Assembly (NCBI RefSeq): GCF_000024025.1
Contig: NC_013131.1
Span: 5,890,001 to 5,954,000, forward strand
DNA: 64,000 nucleotides
Reading direction: 5' to 3'
From: Catenulispora acidiphila DSM 44928
GTDB taxonomy: Bacteria; Actinomycetota; Actinomycetes; Streptomycetales; Catenulisporaceae
Below the pieces are notes generated by a model. It saw nothing but the letters and a program-made list of their open reading frames with translations. It made no database searches and had not been told where the DNA came from. A program made the translations under genes and the position numbers. This document shows positions 10,973-21,797 of this stretch, piece after piece. The first letter of the stretch is position 1. The number at the start of each line of letters is the position of its first letter.

Positions 10973-13830
10973 CGACGATGGTGGGGCGAGGCGAGGAGCT
11001 GGCCCGGCTCGCGGCGTTCGTGACAGCCGGGACGGGCCAAGCCCTGGTGCTGCGCGGGGAAACCGGCGTCGGCAAGAGCGCCCTGGTCAACCACACGGCG
11101 GCGAGCGCCGAGCGCGAGGGGCAGCGCGTCGTGCAGGCAGCCGGTGTCGAGGCGGAATCCGAGCTGCCCTACGCAGGTCTTCACCAGCTGCTCTACCCGG
11201 TGCTGGCCGAGCTCGGTCCGTCGCAGGACGGCGCCTGGCGCCAGCTCGACGCCGTCTTCGGCCGCACCGAGGGAGGCGACCCGCCGTCCGTCATGACGCT
11301 CGGCATCGCCGTCCTCAGCCTGCTGAGTCGCGCCGCCGACGACCAGCCGCTGGTCCTCGTGCTCGACGACGGCCAGTGGCTCGACGACCCCAGCGCGGAC
11401 GTCTGCGGCTTCGTCGGCCGCCGCCTGACCGGCAGCCGTGTGAAGCTGCTGGTGGCGGTACGCACCGACATCGCCTCGCGGTTCGACACCGCGGCGCTGC
11501 CCGAGCTGCCGGTCGCCCCGCTGACGCGCGAAGACGCGGCGTTGCTGCTGGACCAGCGCTATCCGCAGCTCGGCAAGCAGACCCGCCACACCGTATTGGA
11601 GCAGGCGCAAGGGAACCCGCTGGCGCTGCTGGAGCTGCCGGCGCATCTGTCCGCTCAGCAGGACGACAGCATTCCGGACGACTTCTTCGCCCAGCCCGGC
11701 GTCGCCCTGCCGCGCCGCCTCCAACACCTGTATGGCGGCCGTATCGCAGCCCTCAGCGACACCGTCCGCGCCGAGTTGCTCATGGGCGCCCTGGACGGCG
11801 TCGGCTCTCGGCCCGGAGACGGCGCGGCGGGCCTGCGCTACCGCATGCACAACGTCGACGAAGCGGTGGCGAGCAAGCTGCTGGAGGTCGATCCGGCCAC
11901 CGGCGACGTCACCTTCCGCCACCCGCTCGTGCGCTCCAGCGTCGTGCAGACCGCCACCCCCAACCAGCGCCGCGCGGCGCACGAGGCGCTGGCGCACGTC
12001 CACCGCAAGAACCTCGAACGCCGCGCCACGCACCTGGCCGCCGCGACCGTCGACCCGAACGAGGACGTCGCCGACATCCTGGAGGCCGCGGCCGAATCGG
12101 CGACCCGGCGCGGCGGCGCCCTGACCGCCGTGACCTGGCTGACCCGCGCCGCCGAGCTGAGCGTGACGCACAGCGACCGCTCGCGGCGGCTGTCGGATGC
12201 GGCATTCATCGCCGGGCACGCCGCACGCCTCGGACAAGCGCGCGTGCTGGTCCAGGCCGATGCGGACGCCCACGCCTCGGAGTCGCCGGCGGCGGTGCTG
12301 GCCGCCGGGTATCAGGCCTTGTATCAGGACGGCGATGTCCGCTCCACCCACCGCCGCGTCACCGCCGCGATGGAGAAGCTGCGGGATTGCGGTTCAGCGG
12401 GGTCCGGGTCCGGGTCCGAGTCCGAGTCCGGGTCCGGGTCCGGGTCCGAGTCCGAGTCCGGGTCCGAGTCCGGGTCCGAGTCCGGGTCCGAGTCCGGGTC
12501 CGGGTCCGAGTCCGAGGAGGTCCTGGCCCGACTCGTGATCCTCCTGTTGGCGATCGCCCAATTCACCGGGGACAGCGGAACCTGGGAGCGATGCCTGGAT
12601 CTCGTGGAGTCGCTCGAGGAACCGGTGGCCGAGCGAGCCCGGCTGTTCAGCAACACCTGGAGCGACGTGGTCCGGCACGGTGCGGGCTGGGCCGCGCCGG
12701 TGGCTCGGGCCGTCGCGGACCTGCCAGATCTGGAGCCGTGGGAGGTCTCGCGGCTGGCTGTGGCCTCCTACCACCTGGACATCCTCAGCGAATACCGTCC
12801 CTACCTGCAGCGCGTCGTGGACCGCGAGCTGGAGACCGGCGCGGTCGCCAGCGGCATGGTGATGCTGCACCTGATCATGTTGGACCAGATGGCCGTCGGG
12901 GAATGGGACGAGGCCGAACAGATCGGGCGGCACGTCCTGGAGCTGGCGATCGGGCACGGCCACGAGTTGTTCGCCGCCCAAAGCCGCGGCTACCTGGCGC
13001 AGCTGGCGGCGATGCGCGGGCAGGCGGCGCGCGCCAGAGACCTGCAAGCCGAGGTCGACGCCTGGGCCCGGCCGCGCGGTCTGGGCTTCCTGACTCAGCT
13101 CGCTGATTCCGCCGGCGCGACCGCTGCCCTCAGTGCCGGGGACTACGAGGCGGCATACCTCTACGCCATCGGCATCACGCCGCCGGGATCCTTCCAGGCG
13201 TACACGTATCAGGCCTCGCGCACGCTGCTCGACCTGGTGGAAGCCGCACTGCACACCGGACGCGCCGCGCGGGCCCGGCAGCACGCCCTCGCCGCGCGCG
13301 AGGCCGGACTCCCGGAGATCTCACCGCGCCTGGCGCTGATCACGTATGGGGCGCTGGCGATGACCGCGGAGTCGGATAAGGAGGCTGCGGAGATGTTCAC
13401 GCTGGCCGAGTCGCATCCGGAGGCCTCGCGGTTTCCGTTTGAGCTGGCGCGGATCCAGCTGGCGCACGGCATCCGCGTCCGGCACGTCGAGGGCCGTGCG
13501 GCGGCGCGTGAGTTCCTGGTGCCGGCGGCGGAGGCGTTCGAGCGGCTTGGCGCGGGAGGCTGGAGCGAACGCGCGCGCTCGGAAGTGCGCGCCACCGGCA
13601 CGCCGCCGCGCGCCTCGACGCTGAATCTGGCCTCGCTGACCTGGCAGGAGCGGCGCATCGCCGACCTGGCAGCCAGCGGGCTGACGAACAAGGAGATCGG
13701 CAAGCGGATGCATCTGTCGCCGCGCACCGTCAGCTCGCACCTGTATCGCATCTTCCCCAAGCTCGGCATCACCACCCGCGCGGCGCTGCGCGATGCGCTG
13801 AGCCGCACTCCGGATGTCTCTCAGGTGTGA
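10969..13830 (+). CDS. LAL-type LuxR family transcriptional regulator with Gly/Glu-Ser repeat
   Basis: 953 residues. N-terminal STAND ATPase with GETGVGKSAL at about 30-39 and LVLVLDDGQWLDD as Walker B; a long helical TPR-like middle; C-terminal LuxR HTH (LTWQERRIADLAASGLTNKE, then SPRTVSSHLYRIFPKLGI) in about the last 65 residues. Large ATPases of this kind activate carbohydrate or secondary-metabolite operons. The ATG at 10969 overlaps the upstream stop. A run of 19 Gly-Ser or Glu-Ser dipeptides at about 478-515 breaks the TPR-like region and is encoded by a hexanucleotide repeat. Walker B has DDG where relatives have DDA or DDV. Confidence 0.9.
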   Translation: MTTMVGRGEELARLAAFVTAGTGQALVLRGETGVGKSALVNHTAASAEREGQRVVQAAGVEAESELPYAGLHQLLYPVLAELGPSQDGAWRQLDAVFGRTEGGDPPSVMTLGIAVLSLLSRAADDQPLVLVLDDGQWLDDPSADVCGFVGRRLTGSRVKLLVAVRTDIASRFDTAALPELPVAPLTREDAALLLDQRYPQLGKQTRHTVLEQAQGNPLALLELPAHLSAQQDDSIPDDFFAQPGVALPRRLQHLYGGRIAALSDTVRAELLMGALDGVGSRPGDGAAGLRYRMHNVDEAVASKLLEVDPATGDVTFRHPLVRSSVVQTATPNQRRAAHEALAHVHRKNLERRATHLAAATVDPNEDVADILEAAAESATRRGGALTAVTWLTRAAELSVTHSDRSRRLSDAAFIAGHAARLGQARVLVQADADAHASESPAAVLAAGYQALYQDGDVRSTHRRVTAAMEKLRDCGSAGSGSGSESESGSGSGSESESGSESGSESGSESGSGSESEEVLARLVILLLAIAQFTGDSGTWERCLDLVESLEEPVAERARLFSNTWSDVVRHGAGWAAPVARAVADLPDLEPWEVSRLAVASYHLDILSEYRPYLQRVVDRELETGAVASGMVMLHLIMLDQMAVGEWDEAEQIGRHVLELAIGHGHELFAAQSRGYLAQLAAMRGQAARARDLQAEVDAWARPRGLGFLTQLADSAGATAALSAGDYEAAYLYAIGITPPGSFQAYTYQASRTLLDLVEAALHTGRAARARQHALAAREAGLPEISPRLALITYGALAMTAESDKEAAEMFTLAESHPEASRFPFELARIQLAHGIRVRHVEGRAAAREFLVPAAEAFERLGAGGWSERARSEVRATGTPPRASTLNLASLTWQERRIADLAASGLTNKEIGKRMHLSPRTVSSHLYRIFPKLGITTRAALRDALSRTPDVSQV
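12400..12513 (+). repeat. Hexanucleotide tandem repeat, 19 units, in LAL gene
   Basis: Nineteen head-to-tail copies of GGGTCC or GAGTCC inside the LAL regulator, encoding alternating Gly-Ser and Glu-Ser. The two unit types are mixed irregularly. Because the unit is six bases, gain or loss of copies keeps the frame, so the linker length can vary without killing the gene. Confidence 0.95.
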
Positions 13831-13911: not shown

Positions 13912-16623
13912 ATGTTGGTGGGGCGACACGCCGAGTGCGCGCGGCTGGACGCCCTGCTGACGGCGTTGCGGGACGGTCGCAGCGCGGCGCTCGTGGTGGT
14001 CGGCGAGGCCGGTGTCGGCAAGAGCGCGCTGCTGGACCACGCGGTGCGGTCCGGCACGGACGTGCGCGTCATGCGCGCCTCCGGTGTCGAATCGGAGATG
14101 GAACTCCCCTACGCCGCCTTGCACCAGCTGTGCCTGCCGCTGCTGGACGGGATCAACCGGCTGCCGACGCCGCAGGCTGACGCGCTGGCGCGGATCTTCG
14201 GCATGCGCGCCGGTGACGTGCCGAGCCCGTTCTTCGTCGGACTCGGCATCCTCAACCTGCTCGCTGACGCCGCGCGCGAGCAGCCGTTGCTGTGTCTGGT
14301 GGACGACGCGCACTGGCTCGACGAGGCTTCGGCGCAGGTACTCACTTTCGTGGCACGTCGGCTGCGTGCCGAGTCGATCCTCCTGGTGATCGCCAGTCGC
14401 CGCGCGATCCCTGCCATGCAGGGTCTGGCCGAGCTGACGGTCCGGGGTCTGGGCTCGGAGGACGCGAAGCAGCTGTTGAACTCCGTGCTGCGCTGGCCGA
14501 TGGATGACGGCGTCCGAGCGGCGATCCTTGCCGAGGCGCGCGGCAACCCGCTGGCGTTGCTGGAACTCCCGCTGGCTTCGCCCGATCGCCTCGCCGGCGG
14601 CTATGGCTTTCTGGAGGCGTCGGCGTTGCCGGGGCGGATCGAGGAGAGCTTCCGTCGGCGGATCGCGGAGCTGCCCGCCGATTGCCAGGACCTGCTGCTG
14701 CTCGCCGCCGCCGACTCGACCGGCGACCCGGTGCTGGTCTGGCGTGCCGCCGCGAGCCTCGGGCTGAGTCCGGAAGCGGCGCGGCCGGCGGCTGAGGTGG
14801 ATCTGCTCGCGATCGGTGTGCGGACCGCGTTCCGCCACGGTCTGGTCCGCTCGGCTGTGTATCGCTCGGCGTCGGCGGAGGCCCGGCGGCGGGCGCACCG
14901 GGCTCTGGCTGAGGCGACGTCGGCTCAAGCCGATCCGGACCGGCGTGCCTGGCATCTGGCGCACGCCACGGAGAACCAGGACGAGGCTGTCGCGCTGGAG
15001 TTGGAAGCCTCGGCGGATCGCGCGCAGTCCCGGGGCGGTCTGGCTGCGGCGGCTGCGTTCCTGGAACGCGCGGCGTCGCTGACGGCCGATCCGGCGGTGC
15101 GCGCCGATCGGGAACTCGCCGCCGCGCAGGCGAAGTACCACGCGGGGGCGCCGGAGGGTGCGCGTGTCCTGCTCGACAAGGTGGAAGCCGGTCCTGCCGA
15201 CGAGTTGCGGTCCGCTCAGGTCCGACACCTGCGCGCCTACATGGCTTTCGCCACCGGGGACTCCGCACAAGCGCCGGTTCTATTGCTGGACACGGCTCGG
15301 CGGTTCGAGCGGCTCGACCCGGTGCTCTCGCGCGAGAACTATCTGGACGCCCTCGCCTATGCGTTGATGGCCGGTCGCTACGCCGACCGCGCGACCGTCG
15401 CGGACGTGGCCGCCGCCGCGCTGACGGCGCCCTCGGCCGGCGCGGACCCGCACGCTCCGGACCAGCTGCTCGACGCCTACGCCGTGCTGTTCACCGAAGG
15501 CCACGCCGCCGGGACTGCGCTGGTGCGGCGTGCGCTGGACGCCTTCCGCCGCGACGAGTTGCCGGTGGCGGAGGCGACGCGCTGGCTGGTCATCGCCGCC
15601 CACGGCGCCTACGAGATCTGGGACGACGAAGCCTGGGAGGCGCTCACCGCGCTGAACGTCCGGCACACCCGGGCCTCCGGCGCGCTGACGATGCTGCCGG
15701 TCGTGCTGACCCAGCGGATCGCCGCCTGTCTGCACGCCGGCCGGTTCCAGGACGCGGCCGACCTGCTCCAGGAGTCCGAAGCCGTCGCCGAGGCCACCGG
15801 CATCGCGCGCCCCGCCTACGACGCCGCCGCCGTGGCCGCCTGGCGCGGCGACACTGAAGCACACGCTCTCATCCAGGCCGCGGAGGCCACCGCGGCCCAA
15901 CGCGGCGAAGGCCTCGGCGTCACCCTGATCAACTACACCAACGCCGTGCTCCACAACGGCCTCGGCGCGTTCGAGCAGGCCAAGGACGCCGCAGCGCTCG
16001 CGGCGGCGAACCTCACCGAGACCGCCTTCGCCTCCTGGGCCCTGAGCGAGTGGATCGAGGCCGCGATCCGCTGCGGCGACCGAAACGAAGCCGAGCACGC
16101 CCTCGAGCGGCTGGCCCGAACCACGACCCCGAGCGGGACCGCCTGGGGCGCAGGCATCGAGGCACGCTCCCGCGCCCTACTCGCCGAAGGCCCACCAGCC
16201 GACGCCCTCTACCGCGAAGCGATCGACAAGCTCGGCCGCAGCCACGGCGTGGTCGCCCTAGCCCGCGCGCACCTGCTGTACGGCGAATGGCTGCGGCGCC
16301 AAGGACGCGAACCCGACGCCCGCGCCCACCTGACCACCGCACACACCACCTTCACCGACATCGGCGCCCAAGCATTCGCCCACCGAACCCGCGCCGAACT
16401 CACCGCCTCCGGCATATCAGTCCCGCAGCCCACCACAACCCCCACCGTGGAACTGACAGAGCAGGAACGCCAAATCGCCCGCCGCGCCCGAGAAGGCCGC
16501 TCCAACGCCGAAATCGGCGCCGAACTCTTCCTCAGCGCCCGAACCATCGAATGGCACCTCCGCAAAGTGTTCACCAAGCTCGGCATCAGCTCCCGCAAGG
16601 AGCTGCGCACGGCGCTGCCGTGA
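13912..16623 (+). CDS. LAL-type LuxR family transcriptional regulator
   Basis: 903 residues, ATG after GGGAGAG. Order: STAND ATPase with GEAGVGKSAL at 31-40, LLCLVDDAHWLDE Walker B near 125, arginine finger-like GNPLALLELP near 205; helical TPR-like region to about 820; then LuxR HTH (LTEQERQIARRAREGRSNAE ... SARTIEWHLRKVFTKLGISS) at the C-terminus. Closely similar in layout to the regulator at 18006-20762. It is 81 nt downstream of the previous LAL gene on the same strand. Target genes are not evident; its 3' end borders the non-coding inverted-repeat region. Confidence 0.93.
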   Translation: MLVGRHAECARLDALLTALRDGRSAALVVVGEAGVGKSALLDHAVRSGTDVRVMRASGVESEMELPYAALHQLCLPLLDGINRLPTPQADALARIFGMRAGDVPSPFFVGLGILNLLADAAREQPLLCLVDDAHWLDEASAQVLTFVARRLRAESILLVIASRRAIPAMQGLAELTVRGLGSEDAKQLLNSVLRWPMDDGVRAAILAEARGNPLALLELPLASPDRLAGGYGFLEASALPGRIEESFRRRIAELPADCQDLLLLAAADSTGDPVLVWRAAASLGLSPEAARPAAEVDLLAIGVRTAFRHGLVRSAVYRSASAEARRRAHRALAEATSAQADPDRRAWHLAHATENQDEAVALELEASADRAQSRGGLAAAAAFLERAASLTADPAVRADRELAAAQAKYHAGAPEGARVLLDKVEAGPADELRSAQVRHLRAYMAFATGDSAQAPVLLLDTARRFERLDPVLSRENYLDALAYALMAGRYADRATVADVAAAALTAPSAGADPHAPDQLLDAYAVLFTEGHAAGTALVRRALDAFRRDELPVAEATRWLVIAAHGAYEIWDDEAWEALTALNVRHTRASGALTMLPVVLTQRIAACLHAGRFQDAADLLQESEAVAEATGIARPAYDAAAVAAWRGDTEAHALIQAAEATAAQRGEGLGVTLINYTNAVLHNGLGAFEQAKDAAALAAANLTETAFASWALSEWIEAAIRCGDRNEAEHALERLARTTTPSGTAWGAGIEARSRALLAEGPPADALYREAIDKLGRSHGVVALARAHLLYGEWLRRQGREPDARAHLTTAHTTFTDIGAQAFAHRTRAELTASGISVPQPTTTPTVELTEQERQIARRAREGRSNAEIGAELFLSARTIEWHLRKVFTKLGISSRKELRTALP

Positions 16624-16681
16624 GGCGCGGGAGCTGGCGCTTCTGGCTTGCGGATGGGTTGGGGTCGTGTTGCTTCACAAA

Positions 16682-16767
16682 CCGCCGGCCGCCAACGCGG
16701 CCTAGCCATCCTTCACCGAACTGCGTTCCCTGCGAGGCCATTCAAACCGTGCGCGAAGCTGTAAAAA
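16682..16767 (+). repeat. Third, partial copy of the inverted-element end module
   Basis: About 86 nt (CCGCCGGCCGCCAACGCGG, then CCCTGCGAGGCCATTCAAAC and GCGAAGCTGTAAAA) matching, with several substitutions, the outer end of the right arm near 17811-17893 in the same orientation, and the left arm near 16850-16930 in reverse. It begins about 60 nt after the LAL stop. It therefore also forms an inverted pair with the left arm, about 80 nt apart. Confidence 0.75.
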
Positions 16768-16849
16768 GGGGCGCTCATAGCTTATGTGTGGGTGGCGGGG
16801 CGGGGCGAGGCGAGGGCTGGTGCGGTTTGTTTGTGGTTTTTTATAAGCT

Positions 16850-17119
16850 TTTTACGTCTTCGAGCATGGTTTGATGGCCTCGCAGGGGGCGTAGTTCGGT
16901 GGTGGGTAGCTAGGCCGCGTTGGCGGCCGGCGGTGGTGGAGCGACACGACCGCGCGTAGGTCCGAGTCGCTGCGCACACGTTTGGGCTGGCGGGTGTCTG
17001 CCGCGTTTGAGGGGCACCTGAAGTCAAGGTCAAGGGCAGGCGCCTCCGGCGGGGGCACTCCGCAACGGGGGGTCGGGCCGGGTCGGGCTGCTCGGCGGCG
17101 GTTCGAATGTTGGTCGCCT
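16850..17119 (+). repeat. Left arm of large inverted element pair
   Basis: Inverted relative to 17620-17893. The outermost 41 nt (16850-16890) are an exact reverse complement of 17853-17893. An 18-nt exact block lies at 17001-17018 against 17725-17742, with recognisable similarity in between and up to the hairpin. Short open frames exist but none has a start with a ribosome site and a credible protein. No gene is seen here. Confidence 0.85.
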
Positions 17120-17120
17120 T

Positions 17121-17282
17121 TGTCCCGGATCCCTCGCCGCTGTCGTCGCCGTAGACGGAATCATTGCGGCCTGGCGGAGTCAAGTCGGATCGCAATTGCT
17201 GTGGTGCTGTTTCGTTCGACTTGACACCGCCAGTCCACAATGATTGGCAGAGCCCGCCGACAGCGACGAGGGATCCGGGACA
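17121..17282. repeat. Hairpin element H1 of inverted pair (MITE-like or structured RNA)
   Basis: 162-nt imperfect palindrome. Ends TGTCCCGGATCCCTCG (17121-17136) and CGAGGGATCCGGGACA (17267-17282) are exact inverted repeats. An inner stem pairs AATCATTG with CAATGATT and GGCGGAGTCAAGTCG (17173-17187) with CGACTTGACACCGCC (17217-17231), one mismatch. Small side hairpins CCGTAGACGG and GGCAGAGCC sit between outer and inner stems. Compared with H2 the stems differ by paired changes. Confidence 0.85.
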
Positions 17283-17459
17283 ACACCCTTGTGGGGAGGA
17301 GGTCCCCCGCCTATCGCAGAATGCTCACCACTTGCAGGCTTCCAGTCCCGGCGCGATGCCGGCAAAAGGCGCAACTGCCTTTCCCAAAAGGTGTCGGCGA
17401 GTAGGTGAAGCAGTAGCCTGGCACCCACGTCGGTGGATCCTCCACACCATACGGGGTTG

Positions 17460-17619
17460 TGTCCCGGATTCCCCGTCGCGTCGGCGGGCTCTGCCAATCT
17501 TTTCGGACTGGCGGTGTCAAGTCGGGCGTTTCTCGACCACAGCAAAAGTGATGCGACTTGATACCGCCAGGCCGAAAAGATTCCGTTTACGGCGACGACG
17601 CGACGGGTAATCCGGGACA
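17460..17619. repeat. Hairpin element H2, inverted and co-varying copy of H1
   Basis: 160-nt imperfect palindrome. Ends at 17460-17480 and 17599-17619 pair at 20 of 21 positions. The inner stem pairs 17496-17524 with 17554-17582 at 27 of 29 positions around a 29-nt loop. Read on the minus strand it aligns to H1 along its whole length, with the inner stem changed from ATCATTG/CAATGAT to ATCTTTT/AAAAGAT, so pairing is kept. Side hairpins are also conserved (CCGTAAACGG, GGCAGAGCC). Confidence 0.85.
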
Positions 17620-17893
17620 AGGCGACCACAAGCAACGACCGCCGCCCAACAACGCGGCGCCCCCTCCCCGGAGCGAGTGCCGCTCGCCGCGAAGGCGCCG
17701 CCGGAGGCCCCGCCCTTGATTTCTGGTGCCCCTCAAACGCGGCCGCGACCCGCCAACCCCAACGCATGCGCAGTGACTCGGACCGGTGCGCGGTCGTGAA
17801 CACGAACAACCGCCGGCCGCCAGCGCCGCCCAGAAACACTCAACCGAACCGCGCCCCCTGCGAGGCCATCAAACCATGCTCGAAGACGTAAAA
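17620..17893 (+). repeat. Right arm of large inverted element pair
   Basis: Reverse-complement partner of 16850-17119; its outer 41 nt are an exact match. The sequence directly next to H2 (AGGCGACCACAAGCAACGAC) also mirrors the sequence next to H1, so the two copies are continuous from hairpin to outer end. The 176 nt between H1 and H2 (17283-17459) partly mirror too (ACACCCTTGTGGGGAGGAGG against the reverse of the end of that stretch). From 17894 to the LAL stop at 18006 I see only low-complexity C/A-rich DNA. Confidence 0.85.
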
Positions 17894-18005
17894 GGCTTCT
17901 AGAAACCCACTAACCAACCGCACCAACCCAACCAACCTGCGCACCGCCCCGCCCCGCAGCCCACCCCATATCAATCAGCCGCGCCCCCAAAGCCCGTCCC
18001 CGCCC

Positions 18006-20762
18006 TCAGCGCTCCCCCGCCGACAGGGCGCCGTCCAGCTCACGGCGTGAGGAGATTCCGACCTTGACGAAGATCTTGCGCAGGTGCCATTCGACTGTGC
18101 GGGGGCTGAGGAAGAGCTGTGCGCCGATCTCGGCGTTCGAGTGGCCGGCGGTCACCAGGCGGGCGATCTGCGCTTCCTGGGGTGTCAGGACCGGTGTGCC
18201 GATGGTCTGCTTGCGCACGGTCTCGCCGGTGGCGAGTAGTTCTCTGCGGGCTCGTTCGGCGAAGGCCTCCAGGCCGATCGTTACGCATGCCTCGTGTGCC
18301 GCGCGTAGTTCCTCGCGGGCGTGGGCGCGGCGGTTCTGGCGGCGTAGCCACTCGCCGTAGAGCAGGCGGGTGCGGGCCACGAAGACGTCGAGGCCGCCGT
18401 CGGTGAAGTGCGCGATGGCCTCGCGGTAGCGGTCTTCGGCCTGGTCGGCGGTGCCGACGAGGGCGTCGGCGACCGCGTGGGCGCCGAGGGCCCAGGGTGT
18501 GCCGGCGCGGCTCCAGTCGCTGAGCCGCTCGCGGGCCTGTGCCGCCGCGGCTGCCCCGTCGGCGCGGCTCGCCGCCTCGACCAGTTCGCTGCACGTCCAG
18601 CGGTAGGCGACAAGGTCCTGATATTCCATGCCGCGCAGCGCGGACTCCATCGCCTGCGGATAGTTGCCCAGACCGTTGTGCAGCACCGCTCGCGAGCACG
18701 CCGCCATGCCGATGAGCCGCCCCAGACCGCGCTGCTCGCCGTCGCGTTCCATCGCGTCGATCACGTCCAGCGCCGAGCGCTCCCGTCCCCGATACGCGCT
18801 GAGCAACGCCGTGGTGACCAGGCTGGTCGCCGCACCCGCCGCTTCCTCGGTCGCCGAAGCCTCGGCCAGCAGTGCCCAGGCTTCGGGAAGGCGTCCGACA
18901 TACCCCAGCGAGGCTGCCCGATACGGCAACGCCGTCGACAGGATCGAAAATGCTCCGGTCCGCCGAGCGAAGCCGACCGCGCGCTCGGTGACGCTCAGCC
19001 AGGCCTGCAAGTCCCCGAGCTCGACTGCCGCATTCGCCGCCGGCCACATGTCAGCCAGGTCCGCGTCGTCGGTGAGGGTGCTCAGCGCCTGCTCCAGCAA
19101 CGGGAAGGCGGCGACCGGTCCCTCCAGACTCCAGGCGGTCAAGGCGCGCAGGAAGACGCCTCCCATATCGTCGCTCGGCGGCAGCTCGCGAGCGGCTTCG
19201 GCGGCCCGCCGCATCCCGCTCGCGTCGAGCCGTCCGGCCCAGATCGCCGCGCCGAACGCCGCCAGGCACGTCTCGCGCGCGGCAGCCGGATCCAGGTCCC
19301 GCAAACCGCGCGCGGCGTCGATCAGCGGCTGAACGGCGCCGAGCCCGGAGTTGGTCATGGCCGAAGCCTTGGCGCGCAGCCGGTTGGCATCGGCCTGCTG
19401 CAACGGGCTCAGCGGACCCAATTCGGCGGCGGCGAGCAGGTCCGGCAGCCGGTATGGCAGTCCTGCCTTGAGATAGGCCTGCGCCGCCGCCAACGCTCGC
19501 CGCGCGCGCTCGGACGGATCCGGGCTGAGCGCGGCTGCCTGTTCCAGGAAGGAGGCGGCGGCTGCCCGGCCGCCGCGCGCCAGGGCACGGTCGGCGGAGC
19601 GCTCCAGGTCGGCGGCGACCTGCTCGTCCGGGCCGAGCGCGGCGTGCGCGCGGTGCCAGGCGCGCCGGTCGGGGTCGCGATCGGCGTCGGTGGCTTCGGC
19701 GAGGGCGGCGTGGACCGCCAGCAGCGTGGCTCCGTCCGCGCCGTGCCAGACGGCCGAGCGCACCAGCGGGTGCCGGAAGCGCAGCGGCGTGCCGGGGTTG
19801 AGCAGTCCGGCGGCCTGCGCCGGTGCGGCGGCGTCGGGTCCGACCTCCAGCAGGCGTAGCGCGCGCCACAGCAGCAGCTCGTCGCCGACCGGCTCCACCG
19901 CCGCGACCAGCAGCAGCGTGCGGGTCTCGGCGGGCAGCGCCTCCACACGCCGCCGGAAACCCTCCTCGACCCGGGTCGCCAGCGGCGCCGAGCCCGGTCC
20001 GCCGAAGCCGAACGCCAGCTCCGCCGCCGACAGCCCGCGCGGCAGCTCCAGCAGCGCGAGCGGGTTCCCGCCGGTCTCGGCGACGATCCGGTCCCGGACG
20101 CGGGCCTCGACCGGACCGGGCAGCACCGCATCGAGCAACGCCCGCGCCTCGGCGTCCCCAAGCCCGCCGATGCTGAGGGCGGGCAGCCCGGAGAAGCCGT
20201 CCTCCGTCTGCTTGTCGGTGACGCGCTCGGCGAAGACCAGCGCCACGGATTCGGCGTCCAGGCGCCGTCCGACGAAGGCGAGGATGCGCTGGGACATCAG
20301 GTCCAGCCACTGCGCGTCGTCGACCAGGCACAGCAGCGGGGCGCCGGTCGCCGCCTCGGCGAACAACCCGAGCACCGCCACGCCGACCAGCAGCATCTCC
20401 GGTGCGTTGCCCGCGCTCAGCCCGAAGGCGACGCGCAGCGCGTCCTGTTGCACCTGCGGCAGCTGGTCCAGGTGCGTCAGCAGCGGAGCGCACAGATGTT
20501 GCAGCGCCGAGTAGGCGAAGTCGGACTCGGCCTCGACGCCGGCGGTCCGGACCGTCTGCATCCGCACCGGCGGCAGCTGTCCCACGCGCCCCGACGCCGC
20601 CTGCTCGGCGAGGTGGTCCAGCAGCGCCGACTTGCCGATACCGGCTTCCCCGCGCAGCACCAAGGCCCGGCTGCGGCCTTCGCGCACCTCGCGCAGCAGC
20701 CGGTCCAGGGTCTCCAGCTCGCGGTTCCGCCCGAGCAGCTGGTGTTTCGCGTCTTGCGGCAT
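18006..20762 (-). CDS. LAL-type LuxR family transcriptional regulator
   Basis: 918 residues; ATG at 20762 follows GGAGGAC, so the open frame beyond it (to 21698) is not coding. STAND ATPase with GEAGIGKSALL at about 38-48, LLCLVDDAQWLD Walker B, GNPLALLELPRGLS; long TPR-like helical middle; LuxR HTH (LTPQEAQIARLVTAGHSNAE ... SPRTVEWHLRKIFVKVGISS) ending 20 residues from the C-terminus. It converges on the LAL gene at 13912 across the inverted-element region and diverges from the SDR gene at 20958, which it might control. Confidence 0.93.
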   Translation of the reverse strand: MPQDAKHQLLGRNRELETLDRLLREVREGRSRALVLRGEAGIGKSALLDHLAEQAASGRVGQLPPVRMQTVRTAGVEAESDFAYSALQHLCAPLLTHLDQLPQVQQDALRVAFGLSAGNAPEMLLVGVAVLGLFAEAATGAPLLCLVDDAQWLDLMSQRILAFVGRRLDAESVALVFAERVTDKQTEDGFSGLPALSIGGLGDAEARALLDAVLPGPVEARVRDRIVAETGGNPLALLELPRGLSAAELAFGFGGPGSAPLATRVEEGFRRRVEALPAETRTLLLVAAVEPVGDELLLWRALRLLEVGPDAAAPAQAAGLLNPGTPLRFRHPLVRSAVWHGADGATLLAVHAALAEATDADRDPDRRAWHRAHAALGPDEQVAADLERSADRALARGGRAAAASFLEQAAALSPDPSERARRALAAAQAYLKAGLPYRLPDLLAAAELGPLSPLQQADANRLRAKASAMTNSGLGAVQPLIDAARGLRDLDPAAARETCLAAFGAAIWAGRLDASGMRRAAEAARELPPSDDMGGVFLRALTAWSLEGPVAAFPLLEQALSTLTDDADLADMWPAANAAVELGDLQAWLSVTERAVGFARRTGAFSILSTALPYRAASLGYVGRLPEAWALLAEASATEEAAGAATSLVTTALLSAYRGRERSALDVIDAMERDGEQRGLGRLIGMAACSRAVLHNGLGNYPQAMESALRGMEYQDLVAYRWTCSELVEAASRADGAAAAAQARERLSDWSRAGTPWALGAHAVADALVGTADQAEDRYREAIAHFTDGGLDVFVARTRLLYGEWLRRQNRRAHAREELRAAHEACVTIGLEAFAERARRELLATGETVRKQTIGTPVLTPQEAQIARLVTAGHSNAEIGAQLFLSPRTVEWHLRKIFVKVGISSRRELDGALSAGER

Positions 20763-20957
20763 CTGTCCTCCGGCGTGGGTTCCTCCCGGAGGAGATTGAG
20801 GCCATCTTACGAGCGCGCGGAGGTGGTTGAGCTGCACGGATGGGCCGTCCGCGAGTGACGCGGCTGACTCAGCGCCAGATGACTGATGTCCCGGCGATGC
20901 CGCGGAGGCGACATTGGTGGTTGTCGGAGCTGGCGATGAAGATGAAAGGAATTTGAC

Positions 20958-21797
20958 ATGGCTCGCACATGGTTGATCACTGGGGCGTCCCGGGGTTTCG
21001 GTCGGGGTCTGGCCGAGGCGGTGTTGGACAGTGGGGATCAGGTTTTGGCGACGGCGCGGCGTCCGGAGCAGTTGGCGGATCTGGTCACGCGCTATGGCGC
21101 CTTGGTGCGTACTGCGGCGTTGGATGTGACCGACGTCGAGGCGGCCAGGGCTGCGGTGGCTGCTGCGGTGGGGGAGTTCGGGCGTCTGGATGTGGTGGTG
21201 AACAATGCCGGGTTTGCCAACAGTGGTCCGATTGAGGAGATGGCTGAGGCGGATTTCCGGGGTCAGTTCGAGGCGAACTTTTTCGGTGTGGTGAATGTGA
21301 CGCGGGCGGCGTTGCCGGTGTTGCGGGCGCAGCGGTCGGGGGTGTTTGTGCAGTTTTCTTCGGTGGGTGGCCGGGTGGGTGGCACGCCGGGGATGGGTGC
21401 GTATCAGAGTGCGAAGTTCGCGGTGGAGGGGTTCTCGGAGGTGTTGGCTGCGGAGGTGGCGCCGTTCGGGGTGAAGGTGGTGATTGTGGAGCCGGGTGCG
21501 TTCCGCACTGATTGGCAGGGCTCGTCGATGGAGCTGCACGCTGTCGGTGCCGACTACGAATCCACGGTCGGGGCGATGAACGCCTACCGCGCCGAGAACA
21601 GCGACAACCAGCCCGGCGACCCGGTCCGTGCCGCGCGAGTGATCATCGATGTGGTCGGGCACGACGACCCGCCGCGCCGCCTCCTGCTCGGCGCGCAAGC
21701 CGTCACCAGCGCCCTGGCCGCCGGCGAGGCGCGTGCGGAGGAGACCCGGAAGTGGGCCGACGCCAGCGCCGCCGCCGACTTCCCGCCCGGGGAATGA
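20958..21797 (+). CDS. Short-chain dehydrogenase/reductase, classical type
   Basis: 279 residues, ATG after AAAGGAA. Rossmann motif TGASRGFG at 8-15, NNAG at 82-85, Ser134/135 and Y149-x3-K153 as the catalytic set: an NAD(P)H-dependent oxidoreductase of unknown substrate. Codon use changes inside the gene. Up to about 21530 third positions are rich in G and T, and beyond that they turn strongly to C, like the neighbours. The encoded fold continues unbroken, so this may be a recombinant of two alleles or paralogues. A paralogue follows 62 nt downstream. Confidence 0.92.
   Translation: MARTWLITGASRGFGRGLAEAVLDSGDQVLATARRPEQLADLVTRYGALVRTAALDVTDVEAARAAVAAAVGEFGRLDVVVNNAGFANSGPIEEMAEADFRGQFEANFFGVVNVTRAALPVLRAQRSGVFVQFSSVGGRVGGTPGMGAYQSAKFAVEGFSEVLAAEVAPFGVKVVIVEPGAFRTDWQGSSMELHAVGADYESTVGAMNAYRAENSDNQPGDPVRAARVIIDVVGHDDPPRRLLLGAQAVTSALAAGEARAEETRKWADASAAADFPPGE

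Follow-up and report, generated by a model that had tools for sequence, protein, structure and literature searches.

The stretch of DNA analysed here, hereafter the window, comprises 64,000 nucleotides of the genome of Catenulispora acidiphila DSM 44928 and contains two convergent genes for LuxR/LAL-type regulators (AAA_16 and GerE domains), one on the plus strand (13912–16623) and the other on the minus strand (18006–21698), the latter with an N-terminal start that is probably overcalled. A tandem repeat rich in Ser, Gly, and Glu (GSGSESESG...) was also observed in a LuxR/LAL-type gene of the window (12440–12570). Between the convergent genes lies a structure of 1,216 nt with no assigned strand (16770–17985), very probably a non-autonomous ISL3-type element, in which no internal gene or transposase was found. 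The preliminary description had reported two facing copies at this place, and the pair is real: positions 16814–16937 and 17806–17929 are 85% complementary, further inverted arms are confirmed at 16945–17029/17714–17798 (85%) and 17142–17261/17480–17599 (83%), and a run of 42 nt, TTTTACGTCTTCGAGCATGGTTTGATGGCCTCGCAGGGGGCG, is common to both outer ends. However, the two copies are the halves of a single element that is longer than first delimited.

The element is organized in the order end, arm R, segment A, hairpin H1, spacer, hairpin H2, segment B, arm R, and end. Its end motifs, GGCGCTCATAGCTTATGTGTGGGTGG at 16770 and GGCGCGGCTGATTGATATGGGGTGGG at 17985 on the minus strand, define by motif match a left ISL3-type terminal inverted repeat (16770–16795, plus strand) and a degenerate right one (17960–17985, minus strand). 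The long inverted arm R, of about 240 nt, spans 16815–17060 (left, plus strand) and 17690–17929 (right, minus strand). The subterminal A segment occupies 17061–17119 on the plus strand, with the GGGGGCACTCCGCAACGGGGGG type starting just upstream of it, and the B segment 17621–17689 on the minus strand; most full copies carry one A and one B end. H1 (17120–17283, plus strand) consists of an outer stem, a side hairpin, a long inner stem, and a second side hairpin, and H2 (17460–17620, minus strand) is inverted relative to it. The spacer between them (17284–17459, no strand) differs in sequence between species, measures about 98 nt in most relatives, and is itself palindromic in several species. 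Outside the element, a truncated arm of an older copy (about 16663–16769, minus strand) is cut at an internal CTTTTTAC, a position of cutting that recurs at three other sites (L033, L038, and L045). No 8-nt duplication surrounds the window copy, whose flanks TAAAAAGG and CCCAAAGC differ, and, since its left end also abuts the truncated older arm, this copy has probably been rearranged.

The element belongs to a family with many members. A blastn search with the core and the left arm as queries located about 31 sites in the same genome, and the core also matched all nine of the other sampled Catenulispora genomes and none of 50 genomes outside the genus. With a covariance model of the hairpin, the nine congeners gave 138, 112, 20, 20, 107, 2, 22, 72, and 142 hits, respectively, and G012, a genome of another genus of the same family, some 30 diverged ones, whereas three other genomes of that family gave none. 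Across the class, 297 genomes added a single weak match (G142), few candidates having been scored per genome, so that the absence elsewhere is soft; this match is a single hairpin that is only putatively related to those of the element. Plasmid and phage collections, as well as distant blastn searches, yielded no matching sequence. In every pair seen, the hairpins keep the orientation H(+)–spacer–H(−). The diverged elements of G012 (L128–L139) contain two inverted 158-nt hairpins within long inverted arms and again lie mostly between convergent genes. In G007, two contigs, C49 and C44 (L063 and L064), stop exactly at the midpoint of a hairpin, likely an assembly break at the palindrome.

Several lines of evidence indicate that copies have inserted. 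In the congener G005, complete copies of 950–1125 nt terminate in GGCGCCCCTGCTTGATGTGTGGGTG and GGCGCTGCTGACCTATGTGTGGGTG, with ends of the form GGCGC..TG..ATGTGTGGG, and 5 of 10 complete sites are bordered by perfect 8-bp target duplications (CATTTTGT twice, ACAAAATG twice, and ACATATCG once); imperfect duplications match at seven of eight positions at one further site and at six of eight at three, one of them a short version of 260 nt. In C. acidiphila, the agreement is 7/8 at L037 and 6/8 at L042 and L039. Moreover, orthologous sites that are empty have been found: the convergent genes that flank L061 stand 103 nt apart in G009 as against 601 nt with the element, L055, at which the neighbouring gene in C. 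acidiphila takes its stop codon from the element end, has an empty counterpart in G001, and the site of L035 lacks the element in four genomes. The window site also lacks it in G004, G009, and G007, a comparison in which paralogy of the LuxR pair is possible at 70–75% identity. At three other sites, the element adjoins the same gene in another species too, and thus some insertions are old or some spots have been reused. At L033, a nested copy sits within the CTTTTTAC of an older arm that continues on its far side. The hairpin ends TGTCCCGGAT, which had been proposed as the ends of the mobile unit, turned out to be internal, since it is the outer GGCGC ends that the duplications adjoin; as transposon ends they were also rejected on the grounds that copies lacking a hairpin retain hairpin remnants.

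A search of the C. acidiphila genome for the pattern of the element ends returned one pair 1,403 nt apart (G000 9915267–9916669), which delimits an autonomous insertion sequence (IS) of 1,403 bp with 27-bp ends and a perfect 8-bp duplication, CATTTTTC. This IS lies directly behind a terminator-like hairpin (GGCCCGTCGCGG-TTCG-CCGCGACGGGCC), at the terminator T-tract, and its long ORF of 425 aa matches DDE_Tnp_ISL3 of Pfam (E 7e-71) and the NCBIfam equivalog transpos_ISL3. Its ends agree with those of the elements in the same genome at 19–22 of 26 positions, and the C. acidiphila A-end consensus agrees with the IS end of L192 at 21 of 26. The likeness holds family-wide in other Actinobacteria: among 21 related ISL3 elements of other genomes, whose boundaries were picked by best score so that single cases may be due to chance, 14 have ends of the same form with duplications of 7–8/8, many of them A/T-rich. 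No copy was found that combines a cognate transposase with the hairpins, and we infer from the likeness of the ends that the transposase encoded at G000 9915267–9916669, or a close relative, would serve as the helper. Transposase genes of three other types were rejected as autonomous partners because they are secondary insertions within copies, namely IS256-type (L113 1191–2546), IS110 (L038 3937–5181), and IS3-type (L077 1647–2929). The same applies to a MITE of about 205 nt present twice in L112 of G005 (G005:C21:137500-142500, 1990–2790), with ends CAATGCCGCGTAGTTAAG and repeats of about 9 nt. This MITE has entered the two hairpins of a single element at the identical position, which suggests that the hairpin is perhaps a preferred target.

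Crude gene calls, made from codon composition only, put the arms almost always behind the 3' end of a gene and most two-armed copies between convergent genes. Pneumococcal repeats exhibit a similar bias towards convergent genes (PMC3049150), as do REPs in their location (PMC3733652). In G005, five insertion sites (L176, L179, L181, L182, and L184) have the target CGGCATTTTGTTAG, or a closely similar sequence, adjoining a short hairpin, which gives the impression that a particular short repeat or type of terminator is preferred.

Taken together, these observations make it highly probable that the feature at 16770–17985 is a copy of a non-autonomous ISL3-type transposon, presumably moved in trans. 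An ISL3-family transposase would recognize the GGCGC..TGAC..ATGTGTGGG ends and insert the element with 8-bp duplication, usually into A/T runs such as CATTTTGT and CTTTTTAC. In a genome of 70% GC, such runs should concentrate in the T-tracts of intrinsic terminators, which would place copies behind genes and often between convergent ones. The terminator T-tracts would thus be the reason for the location, and the A/T-run target together with tolerance of insertion there is sufficient to explain it. Assignment to the non-autonomous members of the ISL3 family is favoured by the ISL3-like ends, the 8-bp duplications of G005, and the putatively cognate autonomous IS, while the IS and the element have ends that are alike without being identical and the window copy has no duplication. 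The suggestion of a palindromic mobile element in need of a helper transposase is therefore supported by the target duplications, the empty sites, and the autonomous ISL3 IS with matching ends, whereas an origin or recombination structure, also suggested earlier, found no supporting evidence.

The core of paired hairpins is not confined to ISL3-type carriers. In the sister species G002, the same kind of core, identified by its match to the hairpin model and by some 50 nt of arm R, is enclosed by ends TGCCGTATCAGGCAACGTTTGCC flanked by CTAG, with both ends present at L159 and L166, so that carriers are not limited to ISL3, and the elements of G012 apparently have a third type of end. At the G002 loci L146–L175, the paired hairpins, of about 178 nt, make up a second subfamily, in elements with TGCCGTATCAGGCAACG ends and CTAG flanks. 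The presence of the core inside differing ends implies that two or more kinds of terminal repeat have become linked to it. A tentative and rather doubtful reading is that selection maintains the paired cloverleaf hairpins as a DNA-structured core, conserved in two genera of one family, and that this core has persisted by exchanging its terminal repeats and thereby being carried by several transposase systems unrelated to one another. A related alternative treats the double-hairpin core as a selfish unit in its own right, such as a single-strand fold or a cruciform that serves as substrate, carried in differing transposon shells; the arrangement H(+)–spacer–H(−) is kept in three diverged groups, namely ISL3-type (C. 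acidiphila and G005), CTAG-flanked with TGCCGTATCAGGCAACG (G002), and the apparent third type (G012), yet no hairpin was found moving alone and the losses of hairpins in C. acidiphila look like deletions instead of clean excisions, which leaves this possibility unlikely.

The long hairpin of the preliminary description is confirmed, as the DNA fold of H1 (17120–17283) has an energy of −62.6 kcal/mol, with z = −11.2 relative to shuffled sequences, and the paired changes reported for the inner stem (ATCATTG/CAATGAT against ATCTTTT/AAAAGAT) are present, together with changes in the outer stem. Covariation was evaluated in 60 hairpins from ten Catenulispora genomes, whose sequences are related, so that the cells counted are not independent events. 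In 41 supported pairs, 98.2% of the cells pair and both sides change in 24 of the 41; the 258 double-change cells far exceed the 65.7 of shuffles (0/500) and the 34 or fewer of slid controls, and pairing, double changes, and covariation score all surpass both types of control. RNA under selection should favour G–U over A–C on the transcribed strand. Here, 7 G–U cells stand against 27 A–C cells, or 7 against 10 when one poor pair is left out, and this lack of preference argues for a process at the level of DNA rather than RNA. The hairpins would accordingly be maintained as DNA, either as a selected DNA fold or because template switching linked to replication corrects the palindrome. For the long arms, mutual correction was considered and rejected, identity within a site (0.752) being just above that between sites (0.731; permutation p of about 0.01).

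The same figures bear on whether the hairpins could belong to a structured non-coding RNA or a bidirectional 3'-UTR/terminator element that is transcribed, selected as RNA, and active behind genes. Strong compensatory change and the usual position of the arms after a gene 3' end, in one orientation, would suit such a function. Nevertheless, wobble pairs are no more frequent than the equivalent mismatch, no Rfam match and no tRNA or tmRNA occurs in the window, no promoter-like site was found, insertion is evident from the target duplications and empty sites, and the A/T-run target accounts for the position; a non-coding RNA, as proposed in the preliminary description, is thus improbable. Mobilization of REP/BIME-type palindromic repeats by a Y1 (RAYT) transposase is the least credible reading: the elements are palindromic, extragenic, arranged in inverted pairs, often between convergent genes, and targeted by IS insertion, as in REPs (PMC3733652), whereas the 8-bp duplications, like the long inverted repeats at the termini, speak for a DDE transposase, the unit measures 1 kb as opposed to a GTAG-tagged palindrome of 20–40 nt, and the ends match ISL3.

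As a non-autonomous ISL3-type transposon, the element is unusual in its size and internal structure. MITEs are commonly below about 600 bp and have no coding capacity; typical copies of this element, at 950–1216 nt, act like MITEs and are larger. ISL3-family IS (NF033550/PF01610) share with it terminal repeats starting in GG and 8-bp duplications, while the element differs in its lack of a transposase, its long inverted arms, and its double-hairpin core. The bacterial MITEAba12 (PMC6382973) is likewise non-autonomous, with a putative parent IS and multiple copies, although the element described here has a length of 1.0–1.2 kb, asymmetric ends, two covarying cloverleaf hairpins, and more than 100 hairpin copies in some species. 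Pneumococcal BOX, RUP, and SPRITE (PMC3049150) are also mobile repeats with structure and are enriched between convergent genes; from these the element is distinguished by its larger size, GC-rich composition, and ISL3-type ends. REP and BIME sequences (PMC3733652) resemble it as extragenic palindromes in inverted pairs located at 3' ends, and differ in unit size, ends, and target duplication.

Non-autonomous elements normally need only their ends to be kept, whereas here it is the interior that has been preserved, through many compensatory changes and with hardly any wobble pairs. This provides a natural case in which the maintenance of palindromic DNA by selection on the fold can be set against correction linked to replication. 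Some assembly breaks in these genomes may be due to the hairpins. Moreover, insertion into A/T runs, which would mostly be the T-tracts of terminators, suggests a possible and simple reason for the build-up of such elements between convergent genes in GC-rich genomes.
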